Below are positions 1 to 34,024 of a DNA stretch of 48,986 nt, piece after piece (position 1 is the stretch's first letter; each line of letters starts with the position of its first letter). This stretch comes from Nitrospirota bacterium (GTDB lineage Bacteria > Nitrospirota > 9FT-COMBO-42-15 > HDB-SIOI813). The DNA lies in the NCBI GenBank assembly GCA_020846775.1, contig JADLDG010000044.1:1-48986 (forward strand). Direction: 5' to 3'. The position numbers and the translations under genes were made by a program. The notes beneath the pieces are model-generated. The model searched no databases and was not told where the DNA came from. It saw only the letters and a list, made by a program, of their open reading frames with translations.

Positions 1-1043
1 AGAACTGTCACAAGTCTACCACTACATGGGCCTTCTCCCATGGTACTTTGACGACTGGCTGTGCAAGCTGTCATGCGACTTACAGCACACCGGTAAAACC
101 TGCTAACCACACTGCAAACAACTGGACTATTTGTGAGACCTGTCATAAGTCTACGCTTGCATGGACATTCACTTATTCCCACGGCACAGCAACAACCGGC
201 TGTGCAAGCTGTCATACGGCATACAGCAAACCTGCAAAGACGGCAAGTCACGCAACTAATAACTGGACTGTCTGTGAGACCTGTCATAAGTCTACTGTAT
301 CATGGGCTTTTACGCATCCTACTGCGACAACCGGCTGTGCAGGCTGTCATGCATCTTACAGCAAACCTGTAAAACCGGCGAGTCATGCTGCTAACAACTG
401 GACTATTTGTGAAACTTGTCACAAGTCAACTACTGCATGGACATTCTCTCATGGCACTTCAACAACTAACTGTACGACCTGTCATGCAACCTACAGTAAA
501 CCTGTAAAGCCGGCAAGCCATACGACGAACAACTGGACTACTTGTCAGAATTGTCATACATCAACTACTGCATGGACATTCTCTCATGGCACTTCAACAA
601 CTAACTGTACGACCTGTCATGCAACGTACAGTAAACCTGTAAAGCCGGCAAGCCATACGACGAACAACTGGACTACTTGCCAGAATTGTCATACATCAAC
701 TACTGCATGGACCTTTTCTCATGGCACGTCAACGACAAACTGCACGACATGTCATGCAACATATAGTACACCTGCACGTCCGGCAAGTCACACAACGAAC
801 AACTGGACTACTTGTCAGAACTGTCATAAGTCAACGACCACATGGGCATTTACTCACCCCGCTACTACGTTCCCTCTCAATCATGGAGGCACTAACCCGA
901 GCAGCTGTGCCTCATGTCATCCAGGGGGGGCTTACTCTAACAAGGGCGGGTGTATTGAATGTCATACAGCAAGAGGGAAAAAAGTTCATAAGACGACGCT
1001 GAACTCTGAATGTCTGCGATGTCACCCTGCTGGTAGAAAATAG
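1..1043 (+). CDS. Multihaem c-type cytochrome built of tandem two-haem repeats (5' partial)
   Basis: The frame is open to the left edge: bases 3-50 continue the same repeat, and bases 6-11 finish a CxxCH motif. The real start is therefore outside the window, and the TTG at 48 is not the start. The visible part has 15 complete CxxCH motifs plus that partial one. It is built of about 45-residue modules, each with two CxxCH motifs. A histidine precedes each motif by about 7-8 residues (F-[ST]-H before CxTCH, SH before CxNCH), as expected for bis-His haem ligation. The C-terminal three-haem segment (about residues 270-330 counted from base 48) departs from the repeat. The protein should be periplasmic or extracellular and carry electrons along a haem chain. 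A beta-barrel gene starts 6 nt downstream, suggesting an outer-membrane electron conduit or wire. Cytochrome identity is certain; the electron partner is unknown. Confidence 0.95.
   Translation, partial: NCHKSTTTWAFSHGTLTTGCASCHATYSTPVKPANHTANNWTICETCHKSTLAWTFTYSHGTATTGCASCHTAYSKPAKTASHATNNWTVCETCHKSTVSWAFTHPTATTGCAGCHASYSKPVKPASHAANNWTICETCHKSTTAWTFSHGTSTTNCTTCHATYSKPVKPASHTTNNWTTCQNCHTSTTAWTFSHGTSTTNCTTCHATYSKPVKPASHTTNNWTTCQNCHTSTTAWTFSHGTSTTNCTTCHATYSTPARPASHTTNNWTTCQNCHKSTTTWAFTHPATTFPLNHGGTNPSSCASCHPGGAYSNKGGCIECHTARGKKVHKTTLNSECLRCHPAGRK
452..721 (+). repeat. Near-identical 135-bp tandem duplication inside the multihaem cytochrome gene
   Basis: Two adjacent 135-bp units (about 452-586 and 587-721) differ at only a few positions, for example cctaca/cgtaca near 521/636 and cttgtc/cttgcc near 542/677. 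The flanking units encode the same protein module but have diverged more at the DNA level. This indicates recent expansion by unequal recombination or slippage. Each unit encodes 45 residues with two CxxCH haem sites. Confidence 0.9.
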
Positions 1044-1049
1044 AATAGA

Positions 1050-2297
1050 ATGAAAATGACATCTATTGTTACATACATCATAGCTATATTAATTATCATT
1101 ATATTACCAGCGAGTCATGTGTCAGGTGCCGAGTATCATGGCCTTGTCTCTATAGATGACTACTATTCCAACGACTCTTCCTCATCGTACGATTTTCATT
1201 TATTAACAACCCGGCTGCGCCTTGACGCTGAAAAATTAAACAAGGATGGAAACATTGCGGTTCATTTTGAAGGCAGAGAGCGACACAACCTTGGTTCAAA
1301 GGATTACAACAAGGGTATCAGCAGTGAACGCTTTGACGCCCTGAACATTGAATACACAGGCATTGGAAATTACTATATAGCAGCGGGGAGGTTAATGCCA
1401 AAAGAGCAGTATTCGGAGTCAGTGGATGGTATAAATATAGTCCGGCAATTCAAGGATACTGGTTTTGGCTTCTTTGCAGGGACCAAGCCCGATCCATATA
1501 ATCAGGGTTTTAACTCTAATTTTACTGCTGCAGGAGCTTATTATTATTATCACAAGCCGACCCTCTCTGCCAATCTTGCCTTTAACCATAATGGGTATAA
1601 GGGCAAGACAGACAGACAATACCTGTATGGATTAGCATCATATTCACCTTCAAATAAAATCAGGTTATTTGGTACTATTACCGCAGATATTGATCAGAAA
1701 TCAAAAGGCATTGATCTTTCTAATGCAATCGTTGAACTATCCTACCGCCCTGATTACCGGAAGGGATTTGCCATTGGGTATACTCAGTTTCGTGCAGTCC
1801 AGTTATATCAGTCAATGAACTTTGCTATAGATACAAGCATACAGCAATCATATTATATACAGGGTGATTACCGCTTAAATGACAAATATGCGTTATACGG
1901 AAGATTTAATCTTCAAACCCTCTACTATAATTCCCTGAAACAAAAGTTAAGCAGATCCACAACCTATCAGATAGGACTCAGGAATGACAACCTTTTTAAC
2001 AGTAAGATTTCCATGGATTTAAATGCGACGACGGCGGATAGTTATGGATCCAAATATGACACGTATGAACTGCAATTCAGCCGCTTCTTTAATGAGACAC
2101 TTCAAATGACCCTGCATAGCGCTTATATGCAGAGCACGAGCGATATTACCGGTTATACCGAAAATGCTATTATGTATGATTTGTCAGGATATTATTCTAT
2201 CAGCAGGATGTGGAACGTGTCTTTATCATACCAGGTCAGGGATGCTGAAGAATCCAGCACAAACACACTTAGTTCAAGGATTATGTATAAGTTTTAA
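1050..2297 (+). CDS. Outer-membrane beta-barrel (porin-like) protein
   Basis: The 415-residue product begins with a hydrophobic signal peptide (about residues 5-26, ending near HVSGA). The rest shows alternating aromatic and polar residues, many Tyr, and ends in MYKF with a terminal Phe, the usual C-terminal signature of outer-membrane barrels. No haem motif or plug domain is visible. It starts 6 nt after the multihaem cytochrome, so the two are almost certainly co-transcribed. A second in-frame ATG lies at 1056. By analogy with porin-cytochrome conduits (MtrB- or Ext-type), the barrel may sheath the cytochrome or let it pass electrons out. I do not recognise a specific family, so a plain porin remains possible. 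Confidence 0.8.
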   Translation: MKMTSIVTYIIAILIIIILPASHVSGAEYHGLVSIDDYYSNDSSSSYDFHLLTTRLRLDAEKLNKDGNIAVHFEGRERHNLGSKDYNKGISSERFDALNIEYTGIGNYYIAAGRLMPKEQYSESVDGINIVRQFKDTGFGFFAGTKPDPYNQGFNSNFTAAGAYYYYHKPTLSANLAFNHNGYKGKTDRQYLYGLASYSPSNKIRLFGTITADIDQKSKGIDLSNAIVELSYRPDYRKGFAIGYTQFRAVQLYQSMNFAIDTSIQQSYYIQGDYRLNDKYALYGRFNLQTLYYNSLKQKLSRSTTYQIGLRNDNLFNSKISMDLNATTADSYGSKYDTYELQFSRFFNETLQMTLHSAYMQSTSDITGYTENAIMYDLSGYYSISRMWNVSLSYQVRDAEESSTNTLSSRIMYKF

Positions 2298-2318
2298 TAA
2301 TGAGTACCGGAGGAACGG

Positions 2319-3620
2319 ATGATAGATACTATTATTTCACCTTTAGTTATTGCTGTTGCGGTAGGGGCATATGTAGCGCATCAAAGCAAGAGGAGCAGAA
2401 AGAACCTGAAGAAAATAAGCAAGGCAAGAGAATACGGCACCCATGAACCGGTTCATATACACCCCCTCGTGGACCCTGGTGTATGTATAGGCAGCGGGGC
2501 TTGTGCAACCGCATGCCCTGAAAAGGATATTCTGGGCCTTGTGAATGGGCGTGCAAGTCTGATCAATTCTTCACACTGCATAGGACATGGTGCATGCGCT
2601 TCTGCATGCCCTGTAGGGGCAATCAAACTTGTCTTTGGTACAGAGACTCGCGGAGTAGATATACCATATGTAACCCCTAATTTTGAGACGAACGTGAAAG
2701 GTGTTTTCATCGTCGGTGAGCTTGGGGGTATGGGACTGATTAAAAATGCCGTTACTCAGGGACGTGAGGTTATTGAATATATGTTGTGCCGTCTCCGGAG
2801 TGCTGACAAGAAACGGGATGACATACTTGATACCGTGATAATCGGAGCCGGTCCTGCCGGGATATCTGCTTCCCTTGCGGCAGTAGAAAACAACCTGAGG
2901 TTTGTCACATTAGAGCAGGAGGATATTGGAGGAACAGTCCTGCAGTATCCCCGGCATAAGATCGTCATGACCTCTCCTATGGACCTGCCGATATACGGAA
3001 AGGTAAAACTTGGTGAGACGAGTAAAAAGGCCCTTCTTGATCTCTGGATGACAGTAATAAATAAGTCCGAACTGAAGATCAGGACGCAAGAGAAGATGAC
3101 AGATGTTAAACAGGACGATGATTGTTTCAAGGTCTTTACCAATAAGGGTGAGTATGTTACAAGGACGATAGTGCTGGCTATCGGTCGCCGCGGAACACCA
3201 AGAAAACTTGGCGTTCAAGGGGAAAAATTACCTAAAGTTGCATACAGGTTATTGGAACCTGAACAGCACAGGGACCAGCATCTGTTAGTCGTGGGAGGCG
3301 GGGACAGCGCTGTCGAGGCTGCTATTGCCCTGTCAGACCAGCCGGGCAATGTAGTCACGCTCTCCTATCGTGGCGATGCCTTCAGCCGTATAAAGCCAAT
3401 GAACAAAGAACGTCTTGACAAGATGATAGAAAAACAATCAGTAGAAGTTATACTGAATTCCAATGTTAAAGAGATAGGAGAGAAGTCAGTCAGGATAGCG
3501 ATTAAAGACGATGTGACTGATATACCCAATGACTATGTATATATATTTGCCGGCGGCGAACTCCCCAATGAATTCCTCAGCAAGATCGGGGTCAGGATAG
3601 AGAAGAGATTCGGGACATAA
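2319..3620 (+). CDS. Membrane-anchored ferredoxin-like / FAD-dependent NAD(P)H oxidoreductase
   Basis: The start follows a good GGAGG site. Residues 3-20 are a single hydrophobic segment followed by basic residues, so the body probably faces the cytoplasm. Residues 56-66 and 87-97 are two ferredoxin-type motifs in which the usual second cysteine is replaced: C56-x2-S59-x2-C62-x3-C66-P and C87-x2-H90-x2-C93-x3-C97-P. A FAD Rossmann motif (GAGPAG, 176-181) and a second dinucleotide motif (GGGDSA, 326-331) follow in the order of the thioredoxin-reductase/YpdA fold. No redox CxxC disulphide is visible. It probably moves electrons between NAD(P)H, FAD and an Fe-S carrier. The upstream cytochrome and barrel genes suggest it feeds or drains that chain, which is inference. 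Confidence 0.85.
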   Translation: MIDTIISPLVIAVAVGAYVAHQSKRSRKNLKKISKAREYGTHEPVHIHPLVDPGVCIGSGACATACPEKDILGLVNGRASLINSSHCIGHGACASACPVGAIKLVFGTETRGVDIPYVTPNFETNVKGVFIVGELGGMGLIKNAVTQGREVIEYMLCRLRSADKKRDDILDTVIIGAGPAGISASLAAVENNLRFVTLEQEDIGGTVLQYPRHKIVMTSPMDLPIYGKVKLGETSKKALLDLWMTVINKSELKIRTQEKMTDVKQDDDCFKVFTNKGEYVTRTIVLAIGRRGTPRKLGVQGEKLPKVAYRLLEPEQHRDQHLLVVGGGDSAVEAAIALSDQPGNVVTLSYRGDAFSRIKPMNKERLDKMIEKQSVEVILNSNVKEIGEKSVRIAIKDDVTDIPNDYVYIFAGGELPNEFLSKIGVRIEKRFGT

Positions 3621-3659: not shown

Positions 3660-4634
3660 ATGCCGGAATATCTTGAACTATTTCACACAGGTGAACTGCA
3701 TAAACGATCTGAGGTCATGGAAGAGAAGCTCAGAGGGTGTAAGCTTTGTCCACGTGAATGCAAGGTTGACAGGGCTAAGGATGAGTACGGATTCTGCCGT
3801 TCCGGCCTCCTTCCCATAGTTGCAAGCTACTGTATCCATCATGGTGAGGAACCTGTACTCTCAGGAACAAGGGGTTCAGGTACAATATTTTTCGGCTACT
3901 GCAATCTGCGATGTGTCTTCTGTCAGAACCACCAGATTTCTCAACCTGTAAGTTCAATTAGAAATAAAGAAATAAGTATTGAACGTCTTGCAGACATCAT
4001 GCTTGAACTGCAGGCAAGTGGCTGTCACAACATTAACTTTGTCTCCCCGTCACATTGCAGTGCCCAGATTGTCAAGGCTGTTGAAATAGCAGCAGCAGAG
4101 GGGCTTAACATCCCGCTTGTATATAACAGTAACGGTTATGATTCCATTGAGACGCTTAAATTGCTGGATGGAATAATTGGTATATACCTTCCTGACATAA
4201 AATATGATGATGACAATACTGCATTTAAATATTCAATGGCTGCGGATTATGTGATTCATTCAAAGGCTGCAATTTGTGAGATGAAACGGCAGGTTGGTGA
4301 TCTTGAGGTTGATGAAAAGGGAATTGCAGTAAAGGGGTTGATAATCAGACACCTCGTATTGCCCAACAATCTGTCTGACAGTGAGGCAGTTTTCAGGTTT
4401 ATAAGTGAAGAGATTGGAGAGAAGACATTTATCAGCACAATGTCCCAATACTTTCCTGCGCATAAGGCACTAAATCATCCACTACTTACGAGATCAATAC
4501 GCGAGAGTGAGTATGACAAGGTTCTGGGATGGATTGAAAAGTATGGGCTTGATAACGGGTGGGTGCAGGATTTTTCAAGTCGCGACTACTATTGTCCGGA
4601 TTTCGAAAGAGATCAACCATTTGCCTTAGAGTAA
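3660..4634 (+). CDS. Radical SAM protein, PflX-like (COG1313 type)
   Basis: The 324-residue protein has the radical SAM cluster motif C81-x3-C85-x2-C88 within an FFGYCNLRC context. A preceding cysteine set (C27, C30, C34, C46) is typical of the PflX family, homologues of pyruvate formate-lyase activase. These proteins bind a [4Fe-4S] cluster and cleave S-adenosylmethionine; the substrate of this subfamily is not established. No glycyl-radical enzyme gene is adjacent. The start at 3660 lacks a well-placed ribosome site; a TGGAG lies about 18 nt upstream, and a later Met at 3717 is a possible alternative. It is the last gene before the copper-region promoter. Confidence 0.88.
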   Translation: MPEYLELFHTGELHKRSEVMEEKLRGCKLCPRECKVDRAKDEYGFCRSGLLPIVASYCIHHGEEPVLSGTRGSGTIFFGYCNLRCVFCQNHQISQPVSSIRNKEISIERLADIMLELQASGCHNINFVSPSHCSAQIVKAVEIAAAEGLNIPLVYNSNGYDSIETLKLLDGIIGIYLPDIKYDDDNTAFKYSMAADYVIHSKAAICEMKRQVGDLEVDEKGIAVKGLIIRHLVLPNNLSDSEAVFRFISEEIGEKTFISTMSQYFPAHKALNHPLLTRSIRESEYDKVLGWIEKYGLDNGWVQDFSSRDYYCPDFERDQPFALE

Positions 4635-5183: not shown

Positions 5184-7217
5184 ATGCATGAGGAACATTC
5201 CATAGGTACAGCTCACGCTGGTCATGAAGGACAAAACCATACGGAGAAGCATGACCACGGGGCGCATCACGCACGCATGGTTGCGGACTTTAGGAAGCGT
5301 TTTTGGATCTCCATAGTTATCACATTTCCCATCCTTATTCTCTCTCCTATGCTGCAAAGGGTGGTCGGACTTCGGGAGGCTATTCACTTCACTGGGGATA
5401 TCTATCTCCTGTTTGCACTTTCTTCTATCGTCTTCTTTTATGGCGGCTGGCCATTCCTCAAGGGATTGTTCGATGAATTGACATCTTTGAAGCCTGGAAT
5501 GATGACCCTCATTGCTATCGCCATTACAACAGCGTATGTGTATAGCAGCGCTATCGTGTTCGGCCTCGCAGGCAAAATGTTTTTTTGGGAACTGGCAACA
5601 TTGATTGACATCATGCTTCTGGGCCATTGGATTGAGATGAAGTCGCTCATGGGTGCTTCGCGTGCACTGGAGGAATTGGCAAAGCTCATGCCCTCAGACG
5701 CCCACAAGCTCATGCCCGACGGGAGCATCAAAGAAGTTCCGGTCAGCGAACTCGTGATTGGTGACAAAGTCCTGGTGAAACCCGGAGAGAAAATTCCTGC
5801 CGACGGTGCTGTCCTGGAGGGAGAAACTTCAGTGAACGAAGCGATGCTGACAGGCGAATCTCAACCCATCACGAAAAAAATGGGGAGTAAAGTGATAGGT
5901 GGCTCCATCAACGGCGAGGGATCCATTACTATCGAAGTGAAAGGAACTGGCAAAGACTCTTTCCTCTCGCAGGTTGTCGTCCTGGTCAAGCAGGCGCAAG
6001 AGAGCAAATCGAAAACGCAGGATCTCGCCAACACAGCGGCACTGTGGCTCACCCTCATTGCCCTGGGTGGAGGCGCCATCACGCTTTTCCTCTGGTTGTT
6101 CGTCATGAACCGAGACTTCGCCTTTGCAATGGAGCGCACGGTCACTGTCATGGTCATAGCCTGCCCGCACGCGCTTGGTTTGGCAGTACCGCTGGTGGTT
6201 GCGGTCTCCACGGCACTGGCCGCGACAAACGGGCTGCTGATCCGCAATCGCGCAGCTTTTGAACGCTCCCGAAAACTCCAGGCGATCATCTTCGACAAGA
6301 CCGGCACGCTCACAGAAGGCCGGTTTGGCGTAACCGAAACCATTGTATTCTCCAATGATATCAATGAACAGCAAGTGCTGAATTATGCTGCGGCGGTTGA
6401 TGCCCATTCCGAGCATCCCATCGCAAAGGCAATTGTAGCGTCAGCGAAGGAATCGCTGCCCGTCGAAGGTTTCAAGTCTATTCCAGGCAAGGGAGCGGAG
6501 GGCAATGTCAATGGCAAGCAGGTCAAAGTCGTCAGTCCAGGCTATCTGCGCGAGCAGAAGCTTTCTGTCACCGACAAGCGGGCGGAAGGACTGAAATCAG
6601 AGGGCAAGACCGTCGTGTTCGTCCTGATTGATGGAGCGTTGAAAGGCGCGATAGCCCTGGCCGACATAGTCCGGCCCGAATCGAAGCAGGCCATTGCGTC
6701 GCTCAAAGCAATGAACATTCGCTGCATGATGCTCACAGGGGACAATAAGCAGGTGGCCCAATGGGTGTCGGAACGAATCGGGCTGGATGAATATTTTGCC
6801 GAGGTGCTGCCGCAGGATAAAGCGGCCAAGGTGAAGGAAGTGCAGGCCCGGGGTCTGGTCGTCGGTATGACCGGCGACGGTGTAAACGACGCCCCGGCGC
6901 TGGCACAGTCCGATGTGGGCATAGCCATTGGTGCTGGAACGGATGTGGCCGTCGAGACAGCCGACATTATTCTGGTCCGCAGCAATCCGCTCGATGTCCT
7001 AGCCATCATCATGCTGGCCAACGCCACCTACCGTAAAATGGTGCAGAACCTCATTTGGGCCACGGGCTATAACTTGTTCGCTATTCCTTTAGCTGCCGGA
7101 GCGCTCTATGGCTACGGTTTCCTGCTCACCCCGGCGCTGGGCGCGGTGCTCATGTCGTTTAGCACAGTGATTGTGGCCGTAAATGCGAGGTTGCTTCACA
7201 TTGCAAGGGAAGCGTAA
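5184..7217 (+). CDS. copB: CopB-type P1B-3 copper-translocating P-type ATPase
   Basis: The 677-residue inner-membrane pump opens with a His-rich cytoplasmic tail (about 13 His within residues 1-35) in place of CxxC metal-binding domains. The intramembrane metal site is C327-P328-H329, the CPH signature of P1B-3 (CopB-type) pumps, rather than CPC. The phosphorylation motif is D371-KTGTLT, with TGES in the actuator domain and GDGVNDAP in the ATP-binding domain. It should export Cu(II) or Cu(I) from the cytoplasm using ATP. A GGAG site precedes the ATG. The 3' two-thirds is much more GC-rich than the neighbours (36 of 60 bases in 6121-6180, against 19 of 60 in 4741-4800), which suggests horizontal acquisition. 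Downstream lies a YHS protein, and further on the cus operon under the same operator type. Confidence 0.95.
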   Translation: MHEEHSIGTAHAGHEGQNHTEKHDHGAHHARMVADFRKRFWISIVITFPILILSPMLQRVVGLREAIHFTGDIYLLFALSSIVFFYGGWPFLKGLFDELTSLKPGMMTLIAIAITTAYVYSSAIVFGLAGKMFFWELATLIDIMLLGHWIEMKSLMGASRALEELAKLMPSDAHKLMPDGSIKEVPVSELVIGDKVLVKPGEKIPADGAVLEGETSVNEAMLTGESQPITKKMGSKVIGGSINGEGSITIEVKGTGKDSFLSQVVVLVKQAQESKSKTQDLANTAALWLTLIALGGGAITLFLWLFVMNRDFAFAMERTVTVMVIACPHALGLAVPLVVAVSTALAATNGLLIRNRAAFERSRKLQAIIFDKTGTLTEGRFGVTETIVFSNDINEQQVLNYAAAVDAHSEHPIAKAIVASAKESLPVEGFKSIPGKGAEGNVNGKQVKVVSPGYLREQKLSVTDKRAEGLKSEGKTVVFVLIDGALKGAIALADIVRPESKQAIASLKAMNIRCMMLTGDNKQVAQWVSERIGLDEYFAEVLPQDKAAKVKEVQARGLVVGMTGDGVNDAPALAQSDVGIAIGAGTDVAVETADIILVRSNPLDVLAIIMLANATYRKMVQNLIWATGYNLFAIPLAAGALYGYGFLLTPALGAVLMSFSTVIVAVNARLLHIAREA

Positions 7218-10907: not shown

Positions 10908-13900
10908 TCATTTAAACTTCCAGCCCTTCCAAACAATGTAAATCGCCGGCAACACAAGCAATTCCATCAGGGTTGATGTAACCATACCTCCTACCATTGG
11001 CGCCGCTATCCTCTTCATCACATCAGCCCCCGCACCAGTCCCCCACATGATTGGAAGAAGGCCGGCAATAATAGCTGTTACAGTCATCAATTTTGGTCTC
11101 ACCCTCAATACTGTTCCTTCAACTATCGCATCCCGCAGGTCCTCGTAGCTGTTCATCTTTCCCTCCTCCTTTCGCCTCTCATAAGAGTATTTCAGGTAAA
11201 TGAGCATTACAATCCCTGTCTCAGCATCAACACCCGCAAGGGCAATAAAACCTACCCAAACAGCAATACTGAGGTTGTAACCCAATAGAAAAAGAATCCA
11301 TGATGCACCTATCAATGAGAACGGTATCGCAAGGAGAATGATCAGCGTCTCTGTAAAAGACTTGAAATTAAAATAAAGCAACAGCACTATAATAAACAAC
11401 GTCAGCGGTATAATGTATCTAAGTCGTTCCCAAACCCTCGCCATATATTCATACTGACCACTCCATGTTATATAATAACCGGGCGGAAATTTTATATTCT
11501 CAATCACTGCCTTTTTTGCATCAGCGACATAGCCGCCAATATCACTGTCACTGACATCTACATAAACCCATGTATTTAAAAGGGCATTCTCTGTTTTTAT
11601 GCCTGCCACCCCCTTGCTCAGTCGTATATCAGCGACTTGAGATAAAGGGATATGCTGTCCTGTCATGGTCGGCACAAGGACACGGCCTATCTTATCCACA
11701 CTATCCCTTAGTTCCCTCTTGTATCTGACATTGATGGGGTATCTCTCAAGTCCCTCAACGGTAGTAGATATGTTCTCCCCTCCGATAGCAGACATTATTA
11801 CCTGTTGAATGTCTGCTATCTTAAGCCCATACCTCGCTGCTTCTTCCCGTTTTATATCAATGTCAATATAGTAACCTCCTATGAGCCTCTCCGCATAAAC
11901 ACTGGCCGTACCTGGAATGGTCTTCACAACTGACTCTATCTCTGTCGCAAGACGCTCAATAGTATTTAAGTCCTTTCCAAAGACTTTTATGCCCACGGGG
12001 GTTCGGATTCCCGTAGAGAGCATGTCTATCCTGGCCTTAATAGGCATGGTCCAGGCATTGGTCACTCCCGGCATCTCAAGGGCTTTATTCATCTCATCAA
12101 TAAGTTTCTTCTGTGTCATACCAGTTCGCCACGTATCTTCAGGCTTCAGGTTTATAATCGTCTCAAACATCTCCATTGGGGCAGGATCTGTGGCAGTCAT
12201 CGCCCTTCCGGCCTTTCCAAAGACAGACTCAACCTCAGGGAAGCTCTTTATAATCTTGTCCTGTGTCTGCATCAACTCAGCGGCCTTTGTCACAGATATG
12301 CCAGGAAGTGTAACAGGCATGAACATCAATGTCCCCTCGTTAAGCGGCGGCATAAATTCAGATCCAAGCCTGGAAAAGGGATAGATGCTGATGGCAAGAA
12401 TAACAACAGCAATAATGATTGTCGTCTTTTTAAACCTTAATACGATATCTATAGCCGGCCGGTAAATATAGATCAAAAACCTTGAAACAGGATTCTTCTC
12501 TTCGGGCATTATGTGCCCCCTTATGAAATATCCCATAAGGATAGGCACGAGTGTAATAGACAATAAGGCGGCAGCAGCCATTGAAAAGGTCTTTGTGTAG
12601 GCAAGGGGCTTAAACAGGCGACCTTCCTGAGCTTCAAGAGTAAAAACAGGTACAAAGGAAACGGTTATTATGAGAAGAGAAAAAAACAGTGCGGGGCCTA
12701 CCTCTTTACTCGCATCAAGGATTATCTCCCATCTGTCTTTCTCCTGAATCATGACTCCTGACTTGTGACGCCTTTCAAAGTGCTTATGGGCATTTTCTAT
12801 CATAACGATGGCTGCATCTATCATCGCTCCTATGGCTATGGCTATGCCGCCAAGGCTCATGATATTTGCATTGATCCCAAGATAATACATCACGATAAAC
12901 GACATCAGGATAGCTATAGGCAGCATAAGAATGGCAACAAGAGCGCTCCTGAAGTGCAGTAGAAAGATGATACATACTATGGATACAACAATAAATTCTT
13001 CGGTAAGCTTTTCCGTCAAGGTATGTATTGCGCTGAGTATCAGGTGACTCCTGTCGTATGTGGTAATAATCTTTACGCCCGGCGGCAGACCTGGCTTGAT
13101 CTCTTCAATCTTATTCTTTACATTACTGATTACGTTGAGCGCATTCTCCCCGAATCTCATTACAACGATGCCGCCTACAACCTCACCCTCCCCATCCCGT
13201 TCTACAATCCCCCTTCGCTCATCCGGACCAAGCTCAACACGCGCAACATCCTGAATCCTGATAGGTGTCCCGCTTTGATCTACCTTAAGAACGATATTCT
13301 CTATGTCAGGCAGTTTCTTTATATAACCAAGCCCCCTGACCATATACTCGCGTTCCGATAACTCAACAACCCTCCCTCCGACATCAACATTTCCCATCTT
13401 TATGGAATCCACCACATCCTTAAGAGATATGTTGTAAGTAAGAAGCTTGTTGGGGTCTATATTCACCTGGTACTGTTTTACAAATCCTCCAATGGAGGCT
13501 ACTTCGGAGACCCCGGGGACTGTCGCAAGCTGGTATCGTACATACCAGTCCTGTATACTCCTGAGCTCTGCAAGGTTGTATCCCTTACCTTCTATGCTGT
13601 ATTCAAAGACCCATCCAACTCCTGTTGCATCCGGACCAATAGTCGGGGATACACCCTTTGGGAGCTTTCCGGAGGCAAAGTTCAGATATTCAAGTACTCG
13701 TGAGCGGGCCCAGTATATATCAGTGCCGTCTTCAAAGATGATATATACGAATGATACACCAAAGAAGGAAAAGCCCCTCACTACCTTGCTCTTGGGAACT
13801 GCAAGCATTGCAGTAGTAAGAGGATAAGTAATCTGATCTTCAACTACCTGCGGGGCCTGGCCCGGATACTCTGTATAGATTATGACCTGAACATCAGAGA

Positions 13901-14024
13901 GATCGGGGATTGCGTCGAGAGGGGTTTTATAAAGAGTCCATATACCCCATATTATTGCCATTGCAGTGAAGAGGAGTACGATAAACTTATTCTTTATAGA
14001 AAATTCGATTATTTTGTTCAGCAT
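10908..14024 (-). CDS. cusA: CusA-type Cu(I)/Ag(I) RND efflux pump
   Basis: The 1038-residue heavy-metal RND pump has the expected 12 membrane segments in two halves. It has the family motif PTIGPDATGVGWVFEY in the first periplasmic loop. The three methionines that bind Cu/Ag in E. coli CusA (573, 623, 672) have clear equivalents: M569 in LMFMP, M619 in PMEMF and M668 in RIDML. This indicates a Cu/Ag pump rather than a Zn/Co/Cd CzcA. It assembles with the CusB-like adaptor and TolC-like channel encoded just upstream in the same operon, and exports metal from the periplasm and inner membrane through the outer membrane. An AGGAT site precedes the ATG. Confidence 0.95.
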   Translation of the reverse strand: MLNKIIEFSIKNKFIVLLFTAMAIIWGIWTLYKTPLDAIPDLSDVQVIIYTEYPGQAPQVVEDQITYPLTTAMLAVPKSKVVRGFSFFGVSFVYIIFEDGTDIYWARSRVLEYLNFASGKLPKGVSPTIGPDATGVGWVFEYSIEGKGYNLAELRSIQDWYVRYQLATVPGVSEVASIGGFVKQYQVNIDPNKLLTYNISLKDVVDSIKMGNVDVGGRVVELSEREYMVRGLGYIKKLPDIENIVLKVDQSGTPIRIQDVARVELGPDERRGIVERDGEGEVVGGIVVMRFGENALNVISNVKNKIEEIKPGLPPGVKIITTYDRSHLILSAIHTLTEKLTEEFIVVSIVCIIFLLHFRSALVAILMLPIAILMSFIVMYYLGINANIMSLGGIAIAIGAMIDAAIVMIENAHKHFERRHKSGVMIQEKDRWEIILDASKEVGPALFFSLLIITVSFVPVFTLEAQEGRLFKPLAYTKTFSMAAAALLSITLVPILMGYFIRGHIMPEEKNPVSRFLIYIYRPAIDIVLRFKKTTIIIAVVILAISIYPFSRLGSEFMPPLNEGTLMFMPVTLPGISVTKAAELMQTQDKIIKSFPEVESVFGKAGRAMTATDPAPMEMFETIINLKPEDTWRTGMTQKKLIDEMNKALEMPGVTNAWTMPIKARIDMLSTGIRTPVGIKVFGKDLNTIERLATEIESVVKTIPGTASVYAERLIGGYYIDIDIKREEAARYGLKIADIQQVIMSAIGGENISTTVEGLERYPINVRYKRELRDSVDKIGRVLVPTMTGQHIPLSQVADIRLSKGVAGIKTENALLNTWVYVDVSDSDIGGYVADAKKAVIENIKFPPGYYITWSGQYEYMARVWERLRYIIPLTLFIIVLLLYFNFKSFTETLIILLAIPFSLIGASWILFLLGYNLSIAVWVGFIALAGVDAETGIVMLIYLKYSYERRKEEGKMNSYEDLRDAIVEGTVLRVRPKLMTVTAIIAGLLPIMWGTGAGADVMKRIAAPMVGGMVTSTLMELLVLPAIYIVWKGWKFK

Positions 14025-14038
14025 AATATCCTGGAGAT

Positions 14039-15487
14039 TTAATGCATATGCTGCATGTGCTCATGCTCATTCTTTTCAATTTTTGTCTTCTTCTTTGTTG
14101 CTTCAGTCTTCTTGACTTTCTTGTCGGATAAAACCTTTTTGTCTTCCTTTTTGCCTTCCGTGCTTTCTGTCGAATGCTCCCCATGCTGATGGCTTGCCAT
14201 CCCGCCAAGCGCTGCCTTGAGATTGCTCTCTGAATCTATGAGGAAGTTTGCAGAGGTTACCACTGACTCTCCTGCCCTTACTCCCGTCAGGATCTCATAG
14301 TAACCCTCAGCCTTTCCCCCAACCTTCACATTACGGGGCTCAAACCGACCATCACCCTTATCTACAATTACCAATTGCCTGACCCCTGTATCTATCAGGG
14401 CAGAATCCGGTACAGCAAGGGCGTTAGAGGATTCTTCAACCCCCAGTTCAATATTTACATACATACCTAATTTTAACTTATGAGCAGGGTTTTTAAGCAC
14501 AAACCTTATCTTGGCGGTTCTTATTTCTGCGCTGCCTTCAGGTGTATAGGTAACCGTTCCGAGGTGGGTATAAATATGTGCTACAGCAGCCATGTATAGC
14601 TCCCCCGGGGAATAGGAAGGGGAAATCTTTGCCATCTGACCCATTCGTACAAACGGTAATTCGTATTCATAAAGCTCTCCATAAACCCACACTGATGTAT
14701 GATCTATAATCTTAAAGAGAGGCTCTCCTGCTTCGATCCTTTGTCCTTCAACCACCATCTTTTCTGTAACACTTCCTTGAGCCGGGGCCCGGATCGTCAT
14801 GGTCCGTGTGATCTTTCCGTCCTCTTCCAGTCTCTTTATCTGGTCATCTGAAATATCCCAGTATTTAAGGCGCTGCCTTGCGGCGTTCAGCATTGATTCT
14901 GTACTGCTCCTTACCTCAGGATATGGACTATCCTTAACTTTCTTTTTTTCCTTAAACACAAGCAGATATTCCTCCTGTGCAGAGACAAGCTCAGGGCTGT
15001 ATAATTCCAGGAGGGGTTCATTGTGTTCAACCATCTGATCTGTCCTGTTCAAGTAAAGCTTTTCCACCCAGCCGCCGACCTTGGCGTTAATGATGAACAC
15101 CTTCGTCTCATCAGGGTCAACCCTTCCTATGGTCCTTATAATCCGTTTCAGATGACGCCGTTTAACTACTTCTGACCTGACTCCTATCTTTTGAATCTTT
15201 TCTGTGCTGATCCTGACCGTACCGGGTAATTCCGCTTCTGACGCCACCTTGTCATCTTCTTCATAGACAGGTATGTAGTCCATACCCATATTATCCCTGG
15301 CTGGAGTTGGTGAGGTAACGGCCGGGTTCATAGGATTTCGGTAAAATAGTATCTTTTTTCCTTTCGTTGCAGGGCCTGTTTTCATATTTACACCTGCAGG
15401 TATTACATAGAACATCATAAGTGCACCGATACCAATACCGATTAATAAGCCTGCTGCAAGAATTATATATGGTTTAGTTTTCATCAT
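14039..15487 (-). CDS. cusB: CusB-type periplasmic adaptor with added metal-binding ends
   Basis: The 482-residue membrane-fusion protein has an N-terminal membrane anchor (residues 7-30). A heavy-metal-binding domain follows (about 49-75, YRNPMNP then MGMDYIPVYEED). The central region has the adaptor's coiled-coil and beta-barrel regions. The C-terminus (about 430-482) is highly charged, Lys-rich, and ends in a His/Met cluster (HEHMQHMH). It may hand copper or silver to the pump. The ATG at 15487 abuts the TAA of the channel gene with no gap, so translation is probably coupled. The long charged tail is unusual for CusB. Confidence 0.93.
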   Translation of the reverse strand: MMKTKPYIILAAGLLIGIGIGALMMFYVIPAGVNMKTGPATKGKKILFYRNPMNPAVTSPTPARDNMGMDYIPVYEEDDKVASEAELPGTVRISTEKIQKIGVRSEVVKRRHLKRIIRTIGRVDPDETKVFIINAKVGGWVEKLYLNRTDQMVEHNEPLLELYSPELVSAQEEYLLVFKEKKKVKDSPYPEVRSSTESMLNAARQRLKYWDISDDQIKRLEEDGKITRTMTIRAPAQGSVTEKMVVEGQRIEAGEPLFKIIDHTSVWVYGELYEYELPFVRMGQMAKISPSYSPGELYMAAVAHIYTHLGTVTYTPEGSAEIRTAKIRFVLKNPAHKLKLGMYVNIELGVEESSNALAVPDSALIDTGVRQLVIVDKGDGRFEPRNVKVGGKAEGYYEILTGVRAGESVVTSANFLIDSESNLKAALGGMASHQHGEHSTESTEGKKEDKKVLSDKKVKKTEATKKKTKIEKNEHEHMQHMH

Positions 15488-27182: not shown

Positions 27183-27506
27183 ATGCATGAAAAGACCCTG
27201 ATATTAAATCGCTTTGGAAAACAGCTGCAAAGATACAGGAAACAGCTGCTGTTATCCCGTGAGGACCTGGGGATAAAAACTGGATTAACTGTTAAGGATA
27301 TAGAAGACCTGGAGAGAGGGATTGGAGACCCTTCATTAAGTATTATTTACCTTCTTGCCGAAGCCATAAAAATTGAACCTGCAGAACTTCTCCTGGTTCA
27401 CTCTGGATATGATGAAGAATATTTCGCTTACCGCTTTCATCTAATGCAGCTTGTGAACAAAATGACCAAAAAGGAACTGAAAAAGGTTATCGCATCTTTA
27501 AATTAA
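27183..27506 (+). CDS. Second, small XRE-family helix-turn-helix regulator
   Basis: The 107-residue protein has an XRE-type HTH at about residues 10-70 (RKQLLLSREDLGIKTGLTVK, then LERGIGDPSLSIIYLLAEA). A short helical tail (VNKMTKKELKKVIASL) follows. It is divergent from the XRE gene ending at 26663. Its 3' end overlaps the phoU stop by 4 nt on the opposite strand. The promoter at 27142-27171 lies almost against the start codon. Confidence 0.88.
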   Translation: MHEKTLILNRFGKQLQRYRKQLLLSREDLGIKTGLTVKDIEDLERGIGDPSLSIIYLLAEAIKIEPAELLLVHSGYDEEYFAYRFHLMQLVNKMTKKELKKVIASLN

Positions 27507-28168
27507 TATTTTGAAATGTTCATCTCCTCCATCTTGCCGGTTACCATAAAAACCACGCGTTCAGCAATATTGGTGACCCGGTCTGCAATCCTCTCAAGAT
27601 TATGGGCAGCCCAGATCATATACGTTGCGCCCTGAATAGTCCTCGGGTTTTCTATCATTATAAGAAGTAATTCCCTGTATGTCTGATCATAAAGGGCATC
27701 AACCTCATCATCGTCATAACATACCTGTCTGGCTGCCTCTAAATCCCTGTTAAGAAAAGCCTTCATGCACCTGTCAAGCATGGATAGTCCGAGCTCGCTC
27801 ATCTTCGGTATGTCTCTAAGCGGTTTTACCAAAGGCTCGTCTCCAATTGAAATATTTATCTTGGCTATTCCCTCCGCATGGTCGCCGATACGTTCCAGGT
27901 CAGTGATGATATTTATAACTGCCGCAAGGACCCTGAGGTCTACTGCCATTGGTTGTTGAGTTGCAATAAGTAGGAGACATTTTTCTTCAATATCAAATCT
28001 CTTCCTGTTTATAAGATTGTCATCATCTATGATCCTTTTCGAGGTCTCAAAATCTCTGTGCTTTAAAGCCTCCATAGAGTCTTTCAAGGCCTTGCCGACC
28101 ATTCCTGCCATCTTCATAACATCATCCTGTACATCCTTTAATGACCTGTGGTACGCCTCCCGTGTCAT
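27503..28168 (-). CDS. phoU: PhoU, phosphate-signalling regulator
   Basis: The 221-residue all-helical protein has two PhoU three-helix repeats. Recognisable motifs are VIDDDNLINRKRFDIEEKCL and DLRVLAAVINIITDLERIGDHA in the first, with YMIWAAHNLERIADRVTNIAERV in the second. PhoU links the Pst transporter to the PhoR kinase and limits phosphate uptake. It ends the porin-pstS-pstC-pstA-pstB-phoU operon. No phoB/phoR pair is in the window. Confidence 0.96.
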   Translation of the reverse strand: MTREAYHRSLKDVQDDVMKMAGMVGKALKDSMEALKHRDFETSKRIIDDDNLINRKRFDIEEKCLLLIATQQPMAVDLRVLAAVINIITDLERIGDHAEGIAKINISIGDEPLVKPLRDIPKMSELGLSMLDRCMKAFLNRDLEAARQVCYDDDEVDALYDQTYRELLLIMIENPRTIQGATYMIWAAHNLERIADRVTNIAERVVFMVTGKMEEMNISKY

Positions 28169-28193
28169 GTTTGCCTCCAGTTAATTCCGCCTA

Positions 28194-28225
28194 CCCCCTT
28201 TGAAAAAGAAGGGTTAAGGGCATTT
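28194..28225. repeat. REP-like element between pstB and phoU
   Basis: CCCCCTTTGAAAAAGAAGGG followed by TTAAGGGCATTT forms an imperfect hairpin (CCCTT/AAGGG). It belongs to a palindrome family widespread in environmental Gram-negatives. It reaches the pstB stop codon (28224-28226). A related copy lies inside the gene at 25640-26611. Confidence 0.65.
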
Positions 28226-28973
28226 ATCCAAATCTTCCGGTAATATAATCTTCCGTCATTCTGTTCGTCGGTGCTGTAAATATATGTTTTGTTATATCAA
28301 ACTCTATCAACTCGCCCATCATAAAAAAACCTGTCATGTCTGAGACACGAGCTGCCTGTTGCATGTTGTGCGTTACTATGACAACTGTATAATACTGTTT
28401 GAGCTCTGTTATCAGGTCCTCTACCTTAGCTGTTGCAATGGGGTCAAGCGCTGAACATGGTTCATCAAACAAAATCACTTCGGGCTCTGTGGCTATTGCC
28501 CGGGCAATACACAACCGCTGCTGCTGGCCACCCGACAGTGCAAGAGCACTTGCATTAAGCCTGTCTTTTACCTCATCCCAGAGTGCTGCCTTATTCAGGC
28601 TCTCTTCCACAACCTTGTCAATGATGCTCTTCTTCCTTATGCCCTGAATCCGCAGTCCGTAGGATACATTATCATAAATGCTCTTCGGAAAGGGATTGGG
28701 CTTCTGAAATACCATCCCTATGCGTCTTCTGAGTTCTGTAATATCCAAACCCCTCGAATATATATTTGTTCCATTATATAGCATCTCACCACTCACACGG
28801 AACATAGGCACCAGGTCATTCATCCTGTTAAGGCACCTGATGAATGTACTCTTTCCGCATCCTGAAGGTCCAATAATGGCGGTAACAGACTTGGCAGGTA
28901 TATCAATATTTACATTCTTTAATGCCTGTTTTTCGCCATACCAGGCATTAACTTCTTTAACTTTAAAGGCCAT
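28224..28973 (-). CDS. pstB: PstB, phosphate ABC transporter ATPase
   Basis: The 249-residue protein has Walker [10 protein letters not shown] (35-43), the ABC signature LSGGQQQR, Walker B VILFDEP and the TPN-type ending ([16 protein letters not shown]) characteristic of PstB. It powers phosphate import through PstC/PstA on the cytoplasmic side. It is full length for the family. Confidence 0.97.
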
Positions 28974-29014
28974 AAGCTATTACTCCATAATTACTGATAA
29001 AACCCATCAGAAAT

Positions 29015-29911
29015 TTACCATCTTATCTTCTTTGAATACTTATGTCTGATCCAGACCGCAATTGCATTCATAAGAAAGGTTATTATCAAAAGTACAATAA
29101 TGCCAGCCGCTGCATCTGCAAAGAAGCCCTTTTGCGGCCTTGATACCCAGTTGAATATCTGAATAGGCAGCACTGTAAAAGGATCAAATAGGCCCTGAAA
29201 ACTTATAAAAGGAAATTCAGAAGATATGGGGCTTGTTGGTAAGAATGCCACATAAGTCAGCGCCCCGATCGTAATGAGGGGGGCCGTCTCGCCAACTGCC
29301 CTTGACATGGCAAGTATAATACCTGTCATAATACCCGGCATGGCAGCAGGCAATACCTGATGTCTAATTGTCTGCCACTTTGTGGCCCCGAGTGCATAAG
29401 ATGCCTCTCTTATCGAGAACGGAATCGCCCTTAAGGCCTCGCGGGTGGATAGAATAACTATTGGCAGCACGAGTATGGCAAGGGTTGCCGCTCCGGAAAT
29501 AACACTCCGCTCAAGAGACATAACCCTGACAAAAAGACCAAGTCCCAACAACCCGTATATAATGGAAGGTACGCCGGCTAAATTTGCAATGTTTATCTCG
29601 ATCAGGTTTGTAAGCCAGTTCTTTTTGCCATACTCCTCCAGATGTACAGCCGCCATGATACCCAGTGGAATAGCGAGAAGGGCCGTTATCACCATAATCC
29701 AGACAGTGCCAATCCATGCAGAAAGTATTCCTGCAGCCTCAGGCTTTCTGGAAGGGTAATTTGCAAAAAACTGCCAGCCAAGCCTTCCGGCTCCATCAAG
29801 CAGAATGTCGACGATAAGCACCACGAGAATTGCCAGCCCGATCAGGGTAGCAGCAAATCCTAAGACATAGAAGGAACTGTCAAACCACTTACTTAAGGTC
29901 TTTCTATTCAT
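29015..29911 (-). CDS. pstA: PstA, phosphate ABC transporter permease
   Basis: The 298-residue protein has about six membrane helices. The permease EAA-type loop (REASYALGATKWQTIRHQVLPAA) contacts PstB. The motif SRAVGETAPLITIGA is characteristic of PstA. It forms the channel with PstC. It lies 14 nt after pstC. Confidence 0.96.
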   Translation of the reverse strand: MNRKTLSKWFDSSFYVLGFAATLIGLAILVVLIVDILLDGAGRLGWQFFANYPSRKPEAAGILSAWIGTVWIMVITALLAIPLGIMAAVHLEEYGKKNWLTNLIEINIANLAGVPSIIYGLLGLGLFVRVMSLERSVISGAATLAILVLPIVILSTREALRAIPFSIREASYALGATKWQTIRHQVLPAAMPGIMTGIILAMSRAVGETAPLITIGALTYVAFLPTSPISSEFPFISFQGLFDPFTVLPIQIFNWVSRPQKGFFADAAAGIIVLLIITFLMNAIAVWIRHKYSKKIRW

Positions 29912-29925
29912 GTATCTTTAATACC

Positions 29926-30813
29926 CTAATACTCCTCTCGAAATCTCTTTCTAAACCAATAGCTTACCATATTCAATCCAAACGTTACTACAAAAAGACT
30001 TATGCCGACTGCAAAAATAGTCCTATACTCAATCGTACCTGTCGGGGTATCACCGAGGCTTACCTGCACAATATATGCAGTTACAGTCTCGACTGGAACA
30101 AACGGGTTCATAGTGAGCCTGGGCTGTTGACCTGCCGCTATAGCGACTATCATTGTTTCTCCCACTGCCCTCGATATACCAAGTATGAAGGAGGCTGCAA
30201 TACCTGAAAATGCAGCAGGAACAACTACGCGTACAGCTACCTGCAGCCTTGTTGAACCGAGTGCATAGGCACCTTCCCTGAGTCCCATCGGTACGGCATG
30301 CATTGCGTCCTCGCTCAGTGACGAGATGATTGGAATTATCATTATCCCCATAACAATCCCGGGACTCAGCGCATTGAAGCCGGATAAATTCGGGAAAATC
30401 TTCTGAAGTGCAGGAGTTACCAGGAGAAGGGCAAAGTATCCATAGACTACTGTGGGGACAGCAGCGAGTATTTCCAGAGCTGGTTTAACAACGGTCCGTA
30501 CCCTGACAGAAGCATATTCGCTTAGATAAATTGAACTGGTCAGGCCGATAGGAATGGCTACTATGATTGCAATTAATGTTGTAAGCAGCGTACCGGCAAA
30601 CAATGGCAGTATACCAAAGTGCTTTTCAGCGAACAATGGAGTCCATTGAGTATCAGTTAGAAATTCTATAATCGAAACTTCCTTGAAAAACTCGAAGGTT
30701 TCAAATAACAGGACTGCAATAATTCCCGCAGTAATAAAAATAGAAAAGAGTGCGCTCAACAGCAGCATTCTCTCTATAAGTCTTTCTTTTATTCTCCTGA
30801 TTTTCTTGGACAT
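29926..30813 (-). CDS. pstC: PstC, phosphate ABC transporter permease
   Basis: The 295-residue protein has about six membrane helices. The cytoplasmic loop [20 protein letters not shown] and the motif [16 protein letters not shown] are typical of PstC. It pairs with PstA and receives phosphate from PstS. It starts 15 nt after pstS ends. Confidence 0.96.
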
Positions 30814-30828
30814 GAAGATGCTCTCAGA

Positions 30829-31827
30829 TTATTCCTTTTGCAAAAGCTCCTCAATCTTTACTCCCACCTGAGAGCCGTGACCTCCAAATATTGAGCCGGT
30901 CTTGCGAGCTGCATACCGTTTTAAAGCAAGGTCATATGCCATGTCAGGAAGAGCAATGTATCCGACCTCCTTAGTAAGGTCGGCGGCATTCTTCAGGTAA
31001 AACTCTACGAATCTCTTTACTTCAGGCCTGTCAGACGACTTCCTGTTTACATATATGAACAGTGGTCTTGATAATGGCTGATATGAACTCTCAGTTACAT
31101 TCTCATATGTTGGGAGGACAGGTCCTTTGCCATTTGAAGCGTTCCCGTCGTCAACCGGTGCAAGCTTCAGTCTCTCCTTATTGTTCTCATAGTATGCCAC
31201 ACCGGCAAATCCCAGTGCAAGGACATCTGTAGCTATTCCCTGAACAAGGATGTTATCATCTTCGCTCGATGTATAATCGCCACGGCTTGAATGTTCCTTT
31301 CCAACTATAGCCTCTGTAAAATAATCATATGTCCCTGAGTCTACGCCGGCTCCGTAAAGATGGATCTCCTTTTTTGGCCAGCCGCTGCGTATCTGATTCC
31401 ATTTAGTGATCTTTCTCTGTGCAGCCGGCTCCCATAACTTTTTTAATTCTGAAACTGTAATATAGTCAACCCAGGTATTTCCCGGATTTATCATTATGGC
31501 AATTCCATCATAAGCAATAGGTAACTCTAAGTATTCAATCCCGTTTTTCTTACAGAGACTGACCTCAGAAGGTTTGATTGGCCGTGAGGCATCAGCAATA
31601 TCAGTTTCATTATTACACAACTTCTTGAAACCACCGCCAGTGCCTGATATTCCAACAGTAACCCTTGTCTTTCCTCTCTCTGCCCCCTGAAACTCCTCTG
31701 CTACCGCCTCAGTAATAGGGTAGACAGTGGATGACCCGTCTACCTTTACAGTTGCAGCAGGATATGCATCTGAAGTTATTGATATGACAAAGAGTATTAA
31801 ACCCAAACATGGAATTATACGTTTCAT
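30829..31827 (-). CDS. pstS: PstS, periplasmic phosphate-binding protein
   Basis: I place the start at the ATG at 31827, which has a GGAGG site 4-5 nt upstream and begins a signal peptide ([18 protein letters not shown], cleavage near AYPA). A far upstream ATG at 31866 would add 13 charged residues. The mature domain has the phosphate-loop motifs DGSSTVYPI and [11 protein letters not shown], and the later DSGTYDYF and SRPLFIYVN. It captures phosphate in the periplasm and passes it to PstCA. It follows a phosphate-porin gene with a 72-nt gap. Confidence 0.96.
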
Positions 31828-31899
31828 GTTACCTCCGGTTTGTTCAAAACCCTGATTCTCAGACATATATTACAGGATTGTGGACTAAATGTTAAGCAC

Positions 31900-33096
31900 C
31901 TAGAAATAGAGTTGTGCCTGAAGCTGATATGTGTCTTTAGTATCAGCTTTGGCGAGGACTCCGCTGGCACTGCTGTCAAACTTTGTACTGACACGATTTA
32001 ACCCTATCTTCATACTGTGACCTTTTAAATACCAGTTGACTCCTACAGTAGTAGTCTTTTCCTGTTTATTATCACTATTTGAGTCCTGGTCATAAACTTC
32101 ATATCTTGCCACAGGTTCTAAGTCAATCCCCTGAATAAAATATCCAGCCTGCAGGTACCAGCCATTCGGCTCTTTTGCAGGTTTAGCTGGATCAGTAGAT
32201 TCTTCCTTCCATCTGTTATACTCTACCTGTCCAGTAAAGCCTCCCCAGTGTCCCGATATATCCAGACCTGTAAGGGTCCTTTCCTCTTCACAGGCAGTTG
32301 TCTGATACTCAATCCTTTTTTGGGTGGCATAGTTTGCTCCAAGGGTAAGGTGTTTTCCTTTGCCGAGGTGTGCATCGCTCTGACTTGCCTCTGTCCAGCC
32401 GGGTGGAGAGACCTCAATCCTTGCAACATACAACGGATCCGATTTATGAACAACAGTACTGGTCGCTATTGGGGTGTTTGGCTCCCACCCATCGCCAATG
32501 GCTATGTTATAAGTAAACAGACCTTCTGCAATCTTGCCGGAAAACATAAGATTAGACTGGTAATAGTCATCAAAGAGTTTTTTTGCAGCCTCAGTTGAAA
32601 CCGGCCTTTCAACAATCAGTTGTTTTGATGAAGACGATAATGAGACCCTTGAGTATGGAAGTTTTGCCTTGCCAAACCTCACTCCAAAAGCATCGTCAAA
32701 CTTGTAATCAATATTTGCGATCTGTATCTTAACCTCATTAGTCGGTGAACCGCTCGATGCGAACTTCCCATTCTTATCTGCCTCAAAGACCAGGCTGTAC
32801 TTTAATTCCTTCACCATATTGCCGCCGATCTCAAGACGGAGCCTTCTAAGATAGCTGTCCATTTCAGACTCATATGAAGTCCCTGCTTCATTTTTTATCA
32901 GGTCACCCATGTCTATTCTGGGCTGCATGCGGACTCTGATACCAATATCCGTGTCGTTGCTGATCTTTACTTTTAATCCCTTTGTCTCATCACCCATACT
33001 GAAATCCCGGGCAAATGCTGCTGTTGTCAGCGATAAAATCGCTACAGGTACTATTAGTAGTTTTGTTAATTTACTCATCTTTCTATGTTCCTCCAT
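31900..33096 (-). CDS. Phosphate-selective porin (OprO/OprP family)
   Basis: I choose the ATG at 33096 because AAAGGAGGTGA lies 4 nt upstream; an ATG at 33126 is upstream of that site. The 398-residue product has a signal peptide (hydrophobic core near LLIVPVAILSLTTAAFA) and an outer-membrane barrel of the phosphate-selective porin O/P type. It shows alternating strands, YLRRLRLEIGG near the N-terminus, and ends in LQAQLYF with a terminal Phe. It would let phosphate into the periplasm for PstS. Being first in the pst operon, it is probably induced by phosphate starvation. Confidence 0.9.
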   Translation of the reverse strand: MEEHRKMSKLTKLLIVPVAILSLTTAAFARDFSMGDETKGLKVKISNDTDIGIRVRMQPRIDMGDLIKNEAGTSYESEMDSYLRRLRLEIGGNMVKELKYSLVFEADKNGKFASSGSPTNEVKIQIANIDYKFDDAFGVRFGKAKLPYSRVSLSSSSKQLIVERPVSTEAAKKLFDDYYQSNLMFSGKIAEGLFTYNIAIGDGWEPNTPIATSTVVHKSDPLYVARIEVSPPGWTEASQSDAHLGKGKHLTLGANYATQKRIEYQTTACEEERTLTGLDISGHWGGFTGQVEYNRWKEESTDPAKPAKEPNGWYLQAGYFIQGIDLEPVARYEVYDQDSNSDNKQEKTTTVGVNWYLKGHSMKIGLNRVSTKFDSSASGVLAKADTKDTYQLQAQLYF

Positions 33097-33424
33097 TTCC
33101 TCACCTCCTTTCATCCTGTGAGGCATTCTATCCTGTGACTGTTACCGGATTACGACAGCAATATTAAGATTGGGTTACGAACTACAGATAGCTTTCCAGA
33201 GTAAGGCAAAAAAGGAGTAATGGATATCGTTCGTAAAGGTTGCTCAGGGAGTACTGTCGGTCCAAAGAACAAAAAAAATTCAGAATGCCTGTTTGACAGT
33301 TTAGGCCTGAGGTGATAGCATTCTGGCCTGGAAGAATGGTTTAAGTGGCAGCTGTTTGAATTAAGCCCCCGTCAATAGTGGGGAATTGCGGAGCAGGCTG
33401 CCGGAAAGTGAGGGACAAAATATC
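33097..33424. other. Intergenic region between the phosphate operon and mgsA
   Basis: This divergent spacer should carry promoters for the leftward phosphate operon and for mgsA. Near 33139-33179 there are three GTTAC/ATTAC-type words (plus strand), but their spacing does not fit the 11-bp Pho box, so I do not call one. A run of A (33270-33278) and AT-rich words are present. No open frame was convincing. Confidence 0.4.
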
Positions 33425-33949: not shown

Positions 33950-33969
33950 GTACAACAGCACAACAGCAG

Positions 33970-34018
33970 GGTCGGACCGCGCTAACCAATAAAATATTAT
34001 TCAAAACGCGGTCCGACC
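33970..34018. terminator. Strong inverted repeat between convergent genes
   Basis: GGTCGGACCGCG (33970-33981) is the perfect reverse complement of CGCGGTCCGACC (34007-34018), with a 25-nt AT-rich loop. It lies between the convergent mgsA and cytochrome peroxidase genes, ending 7 nt before the latter's stop. It could act as a bidirectional terminator, though there is no T-run, or be a mobile REP-type palindrome. The 12-bp GC-rich arms contrast with the neighbourhood. Confidence 0.6.
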
Positions 34019-34024
34019 TTACAA

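Follow-up and report, generated by a model that had tools for sequence, protein, structure and literature searches.

The described system closest to the locus reported here is PCC3, which was proposed from Fe(II) oxidisers and comprises a porin, an extracellular cytochrome (median 34 hemes), a periplasmic cytochrome (median 21 hemes) and a five-helix inner-membrane protein (IMP) that carries the WX3HX13H motif twice (PMC5566968). An analogy between this IMP and the transmembrane domain of the ferric reductase/NOX type has been drawn, PCC3 cytochromes take up 22-39 residues per heme, and 85 hemes have been reported in one protein (PMC5566968). In a study of Gallionellaceae, the PCC3 periplasmic cytochromes carry 21, 24 or 27 hemes and the extracellular ones 10-35 (PMC10734462). 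The PCC3 of Sideroxydans ES-1 is down-regulated on Fe(II) (PMC8788666). MtrCAB, MtoAB and PioAB also combine a barrel with a multiheme cytochrome and take electrons across the outer membrane, and in Cyc2 a heme c motif is fused to the barrel. With large conduits it is an open question how electrons get from one separate cytochrome to the next across the periplasm and the outer membrane.

Here we describe a conserved gene set in a Nitrospirota genome (G000) that likely specifies an electron wire across both cell membranes. The window, i.e. the whole stretch of DNA analysed, comprises 48,986 nt (G000:C44:1-48986), so that its base 1 is the contig edge, where the cytochrome gene is cut; the upstream part of the locus is found on contig C4. 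The features are as follows.

1-1043, plus strand: 3' end of a giant multiheme cytochrome gene (frame 3-1043; 346 aa, 15 CxxCH), wholly in the Ser/Thr-rich 'extracellular-type' C part
1-850, plus strand: 135-bp tandem repeats (Tandem Repeats Finder), the unit being 45 aa with two CxxCH, running on into C4
1050-2297, plus strand: outer-membrane beta-barrel, 415 aa, with signal sequence, C-terminal Phe and no Cys; modelled by AF2 at modest quality with 22 strands
2319-3620, plus strand: membrane-anchored Fe-S/FAD/NAD(P) oxidoreductase, 433 aa, with Fer4 domains and Pyr_redox
2484-2612, plus strand: two Fe-S motifs, CIGSGACATACP and CIGHGACASACP (residues 56-98), the second Cys being replaced by Ser and by His, respectively
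2844-2861, plus strand: FAD motif GAGPAG (residues 176-181)
3294-3311, plus strand: NAD(P) motif GGGDSA (residues 326-331)
C4:4146-5060: IMP, 304 aa, 6 nt upstream of the cytochrome gene
C4:4139, minus strand of C4: start of the giant cytochrome gene

The three genes in the window are co-directional, with gaps of 6 nt (cytochrome to barrel) and 21 nt (barrel to oxidoreductase), exactly as an earlier, sequence-only reading had described them. That reading took them for a module of three with a repeat cytochrome at its head. The module is conserved, but its core also includes the inner-membrane protein of the diheme-b type encoded upstream on C4; the cytochrome is indeed multiheme and repetitive, but the window holds only the 3' end of a two-part giant. 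The minus strand of C4:1-103 is identical to window positions 1-103, and through this exact 103-bp overlap the two contigs yield a cytochrome that begins with a signal peptide, is 1692 aa long and contains 70 CxxCH. The contigs meet within the 135-bp tandem repeat, which accounts for the contig break and leaves the copy number, and therefore the exact heme number in G000, uncertain. In a genome of the same genus (G001), a 164-kb contig holds the complete cytochrome gene (1638 aa, 68 CxxCH) in its interior, which rules out an assembly artefact as the source of the giant gene. A heme-count record was considered for the ~70 hemes and rejected, since 85 in one protein have been published (PMC5566968).

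The order IMP, cytochrome, barrel, oxidoreductase recurs on single contigs in four members of the same family (G001, G004, G005 and G006), and in a further one (G007) the first three genes lie together and the oxidoreductase is found on a separate contig. Relatives with a name on record are Nitrospirae MAGs. Family cytochromes with an unbroken frame have 38-68 CxxCH; the G004 frame contains a run of N. This recurrence in relatives implies that the arrangement is not due to chance, and it contradicts the possibility, raised in the sequence-only reading, that the trio is not conserved. A barrel match was absent from four further family members, whose genomes are 70-81% complete. A second group of MAGs (G099, G458, G516 and G521, two of them labelled Deltaproteobacteria) carries the cytochrome and the barrel, with the oxidoreductase convergent beside the barrel, and the IMP precedes the cytochrome wherever the contig extends far enough. 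G516 has an additional IMP-cytochrome-barrel set without oxidoreductase. Possible second cassettes are seen in G009, as a giant cytochrome with at least 38 CxxCH and a convergent oxidoreductase with no barrel between them (L130 1-4241), and in G007, as an extra cytochrome fragment near its oxidoreductase (L129 12734-13999).

The giant cytochrome falls into two parts of different composition. In G000, the first ~680 aa contain 19% Lys+Arg and 14% Asp+Glu, and the remainder contains 6% Lys+Arg, 3% Asp+Glu and 32% Ser+Thr. A composition break gives a log-likelihood gain of 27-116 in the giants versus 1-11 in single cytochromes, and a sharp split is seen in the giants alone. The N part has 22-24 CxxCH (30 in one protein) and the C part 11-46. 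For comparison, the proteins were split at a conserved motif close to the computed break; the fusion point bears the conserved stretch FDHSKTGYPLxGxHRxAECQDCHxNRxYRNT. We matched the parts to cytochromes of Nitrospirota clusters that we call PCC3-like from the published layout and motifs alone, not from comparison with the proteobacterial originals. In these clusters cytochromes of 24-27 hemes adjoin the IMP, and another cytochrome lies close to a larger porin, in some of them with N-terminal TPR signals. The N part matches the PCC3-like 24-heme periplasmic-type cytochromes end to end (E 4e-108, 555 columns) and the C part the extracellular-type cytochrome of G136 (E 1e-50, 554 columns), whereas the cross matches are far weaker, at about 1e-22; all these profile scores are inflated by the CxxCH repeats. 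As in PCC3, the cytochrome is heme-rich and built of repeats, its 23-26 aa per CxxCH lie within the 22-39 of that class, and the heme numbers of the two parts fit PCC3 periplasmic (21-27) and extracellular (10-35, up to 85) cytochromes. From these sequence comparisons the giant would seem to be a periplasmic and an extracellular wire fused, with a nearly fixed N part and a variable outer part. Such a natural fusion of both wires is evolutionary evidence that in PCC3-type systems they make up a single unbroken path, and it allows the topology to be tested within one protein. A possible unfused counterpart is seen in G020 (L098), where one gene encodes a cytochrome of 28 hemes and a separate gene next to it encodes another cytochrome.

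The IMP carries two WX3HX13H (diheme b) motifs on two helices, W103-H107-H121 and W273-H277-H291, and both are present in 17 of 17 IMPs examined. At ~300 aa with this motif pair it resembles the PCC3 IMP, and it aligns with the IMPs of the Nitrospirota PCC3-like clusters (E 2e-49); unlike the SGxxG of these proteins and the SGXXG on the fourth helix of PCC3 IMPs, it has an FGxLG, the IMPs of this group carrying FGILG or FGIIG. Like the ferric reductase/NOX domain (PF01794), the IMP has HX13H pairs on two helices, from which two b hemes are assigned, but it has no Pfam match, and for PCC3-like IMPs the b561 matches are weak and stay under the cut-off. An AF2 model of the IMP (pLDDT 48) was too poor for use.

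The oxidoreductase has an N-terminal hydrophobic helix followed by KRSRKN, which by the positive-inside rule suggests a cytoplasmic catalytic part. Its FAD and NAD(P) motifs are invariant in the alignment, and the membrane-anchored oxidoreductase proposed by the sequence-only reading is borne out by the anchor, by these motifs and by co-occurrence with the inner-membrane component. It does not conform to the canonical 2[4Fe-4S] ferredoxin pattern (CxxCxxCxxxCP twice): the second Cys is Ser in motif 1 of 14 of 16 distinct homologs and His in motif 2 of all 16, and these replacements may raise the cluster potentials. Of the 346 Nitrospirota genomes in the sample, 27 have the oxidoreductase (E <= 1e-80) as well as the IMP (best E <= 1e-17), and 3 and 6 have one without the other (Fisher p 4e-31, ancestry ignored). 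Together with its position in the neighbourhood of PCC3-like clusters in G136 and G017 (L100, L131), this is in keeping with an oxidoreductase that is probably the cytoplasmic partner of the IMP. It represents an unstudied family tied to conduits across Nitrospirota, both a marker and a candidate entry or exit point for electrons in the cytoplasm.

The barrel (~389 aa mature) ends in Phe, the usual mark of outer-membrane barrels, and matches nothing in Pfam or NCBIfam. Searched with a profile, 396 Nitrospirota genomes yielded 15 good homologs and one weak one, and the 297 genomes around G099 another five good copies; a single-sequence scan of the genome contigs found nothing. All 20 good homologs have a multiheme cytochrome frame directly upstream (at least 4 CxxCH; several are cut by contig ends), and three weak homologs inspected (G064, G422 and G550) also adjoin multiheme cytochromes. 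The earlier proposal that the barrel holds or passes the cytochrome is upheld in so far as the genes are tied. Because multiheme cytochromes adjoin its homologs, the barrel most likely serves as partner of a cytochrome rather than as the solute porin that the sequence-only reading had named as the alternative. A wholly incidental neighbourhood, in which an ordinary solute porin lies beside a thiol or redox-balance enzyme, could draw on a weak, below cut-off Porin_4 match in one family member and on the resemblance of the Pyr_redox part to YpdA/Bdr. The adjoining cytochrome at 20 of 20 barrel homologs and the co-occurrence of oxidoreductase and IMP make it very improbable. The oxidoreductase shares its FAD/NAD(P) part with YpdA/Bdr and thioredoxin reductases, but adds the N-terminal membrane helix and two Fe-S motifs, and it scores well under the NCBIfam cut-off for bacillithiol disulfide reductase (TIGR04018, 170.8 bits versus 339.9).

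Taken together, we think it rather likely that the locus encodes a relative of PCC3 that conducts electrons across the envelope and in which one chain combines the periplasmic and the extracellular cytochrome. This is argued by a gene order that the family keeps and the second group keeps in part; by the cytochrome upstream of every good barrel homolog; by the IMP, with both WX3HX13H motifs and its alignment to PCC3-like IMPs; by the matches of the N and C parts to PCC3-like periplasmic and extracellular cytochromes, with the composition break between them; by a residue-to-heme ratio that fits the published PCC3 range; and by the co-occurrence of oxidoreductase and IMP. From the gene order, conservation, homologies, two-part build and motifs observed we infer localisation, passage through the barrel, direction of flow and substrate. 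The IMP would bind two b hemes, and its exchange partner for electrons would be either the quinone pool or the FAD/Fe-S oxidoreductase on the cytoplasmic side, the latter giving a link to NAD(P)H. With ~24 hemes, the charged N part would bridge the periplasm, the barrel would give the chain itself or its line of hemes a way across the outer membrane, and the Ser/Thr-rich repeat C part (11-46 hemes) would meet a metal, mineral or other redox partner outside. The most likely route would run from quinol and/or, via the oxidoreductase, NAD(P)H to the IMP b hemes, the N part, the barrel and the C part, or in reverse. The conserved gene set probably makes a functional electron conduit; its most specific form, one covalent chain of up to ~70 hemes that starts at the inner membrane, reaches the exterior by way of a small barrel of an undescribed family and is fed by a cytoplasmic FAD/Fe-S enzyme with Ser/His-modified cluster motifs, is put forward more tentatively.

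The conduit could also work without threading, the giant cytochrome staying on one side as a periplasmic wire, charge store or exported surface fibre and the barrel serving as anchor, docking site or small-substrate channel. The small size of the barrel would suit this arrangement, as would the lack of a visible lipid anchor motif in the signal region of the cytochrome. We regard it as unlikely, given that the C part resembles PCC3 cytochromes annotated as extracellular and the N part those annotated as periplasmic, and that the barrel gene has the cytochrome gene as its neighbour in each of the 20 cases. Two points nevertheless weigh against the proposed conduit: the 22 strands of the low-confidence AF2 model (pLDDT 62) may be narrow for a heme chain, and outside the family of the window the barrel goes with a b561-type cytochrome that replaces the IMP and oxidoreductase, the gene after the barrel, where present, encoding such a cytochrome or an Fe-S protein.

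Electron 'export', as first proposed, is one of two possible directions. Inward flow would oxidise extracellular Fe(II), Mn(II) or another donor and feed the quinone pool with electrons, which would be driven on to NAD(P)+ at the expense of energy; this concerns direction only and is compatible with the conduit. The origin of PCC3 in Fe(II) oxidisers (PMC5566968) speaks for it, as do several COX1-family hits in the genome, on account of which G000 probably respires oxygen, so that oxygen could be the final acceptor, and the Ser and His replacements if they raise the cluster potentials. It is opposed by the response of the Sideroxydans ES-1 PCC3 to Fe(II) (PMC8788666) and by the uphill transfer to NAD(P)+, and we consider it a serious prospect but not the favoured one.

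The sequence-only reading had expected a different type of conduit; the locus is not wholly different, and is best filed as a variant with kinship to PCC3 as published (PMC5566968). Like PCC3, the cluster includes a barrel. It differs from PCC3 in having one fused cytochrome instead of separate periplasmic and extracellular ones, an Fe-S/FAD oxidoreductase in the operon, and a small barrel without detectable relation to the Nitrospirota PCC3-like porins (probability <=5%). We do not file it as a PCC3 member because it departs from two defining features and no homology to those porins was found. In other Nitrospirota, PCC3-like porins have a probable barrel preceded by weak TPR matches (L099 8956-10989; L100 3076-5364). 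In openly licensed literature, as far as it was accessible, neither a fused PCC3 cytochrome nor such an oxidoreductase in conduits was found.

Compared with MtrCAB, MtoAB and PioAB, the cytochrome is far longer, and the barrel, as the sequence-only reading had noted, does not look like MtrB. An MtrB-type barrel was rejected, with no PF11854 match at E 0.001 and an hhalign probability of at most 7% against MtrB homologs. Unlike Cyc2, the barrel has no Cys. PDB sequence searches with the barrel and IMP profiles gave no real relative, and Foldseek with the low-confidence barrel model returned generic barrels including MtrB at TM scores below 0.45, which we do not count as evidence. G000 has two separate MtrB/PioB-family genes (G000:C115:21106-23187 and G000:C82:9076-11091), another outer-membrane conduit candidate in this genome; at least one such gene is present in 10 of 10 family members searched.

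Further along the window, a radical SAM gene (3660-4634) comes after the oxidoreductase, likewise in G001, G004 and G005. It is followed by a copper-type P-type ATPase (5184-7217) and a CusB/CusA-like metal efflux pair (10908-15487). A phosphate-uptake (pst)-like gene set, recognised by eye, lies within 27503-35044, together with a Porin_O_P barrel (31900-33126) and, after it, a MauG-type diheme peroxidase (34025-35044).
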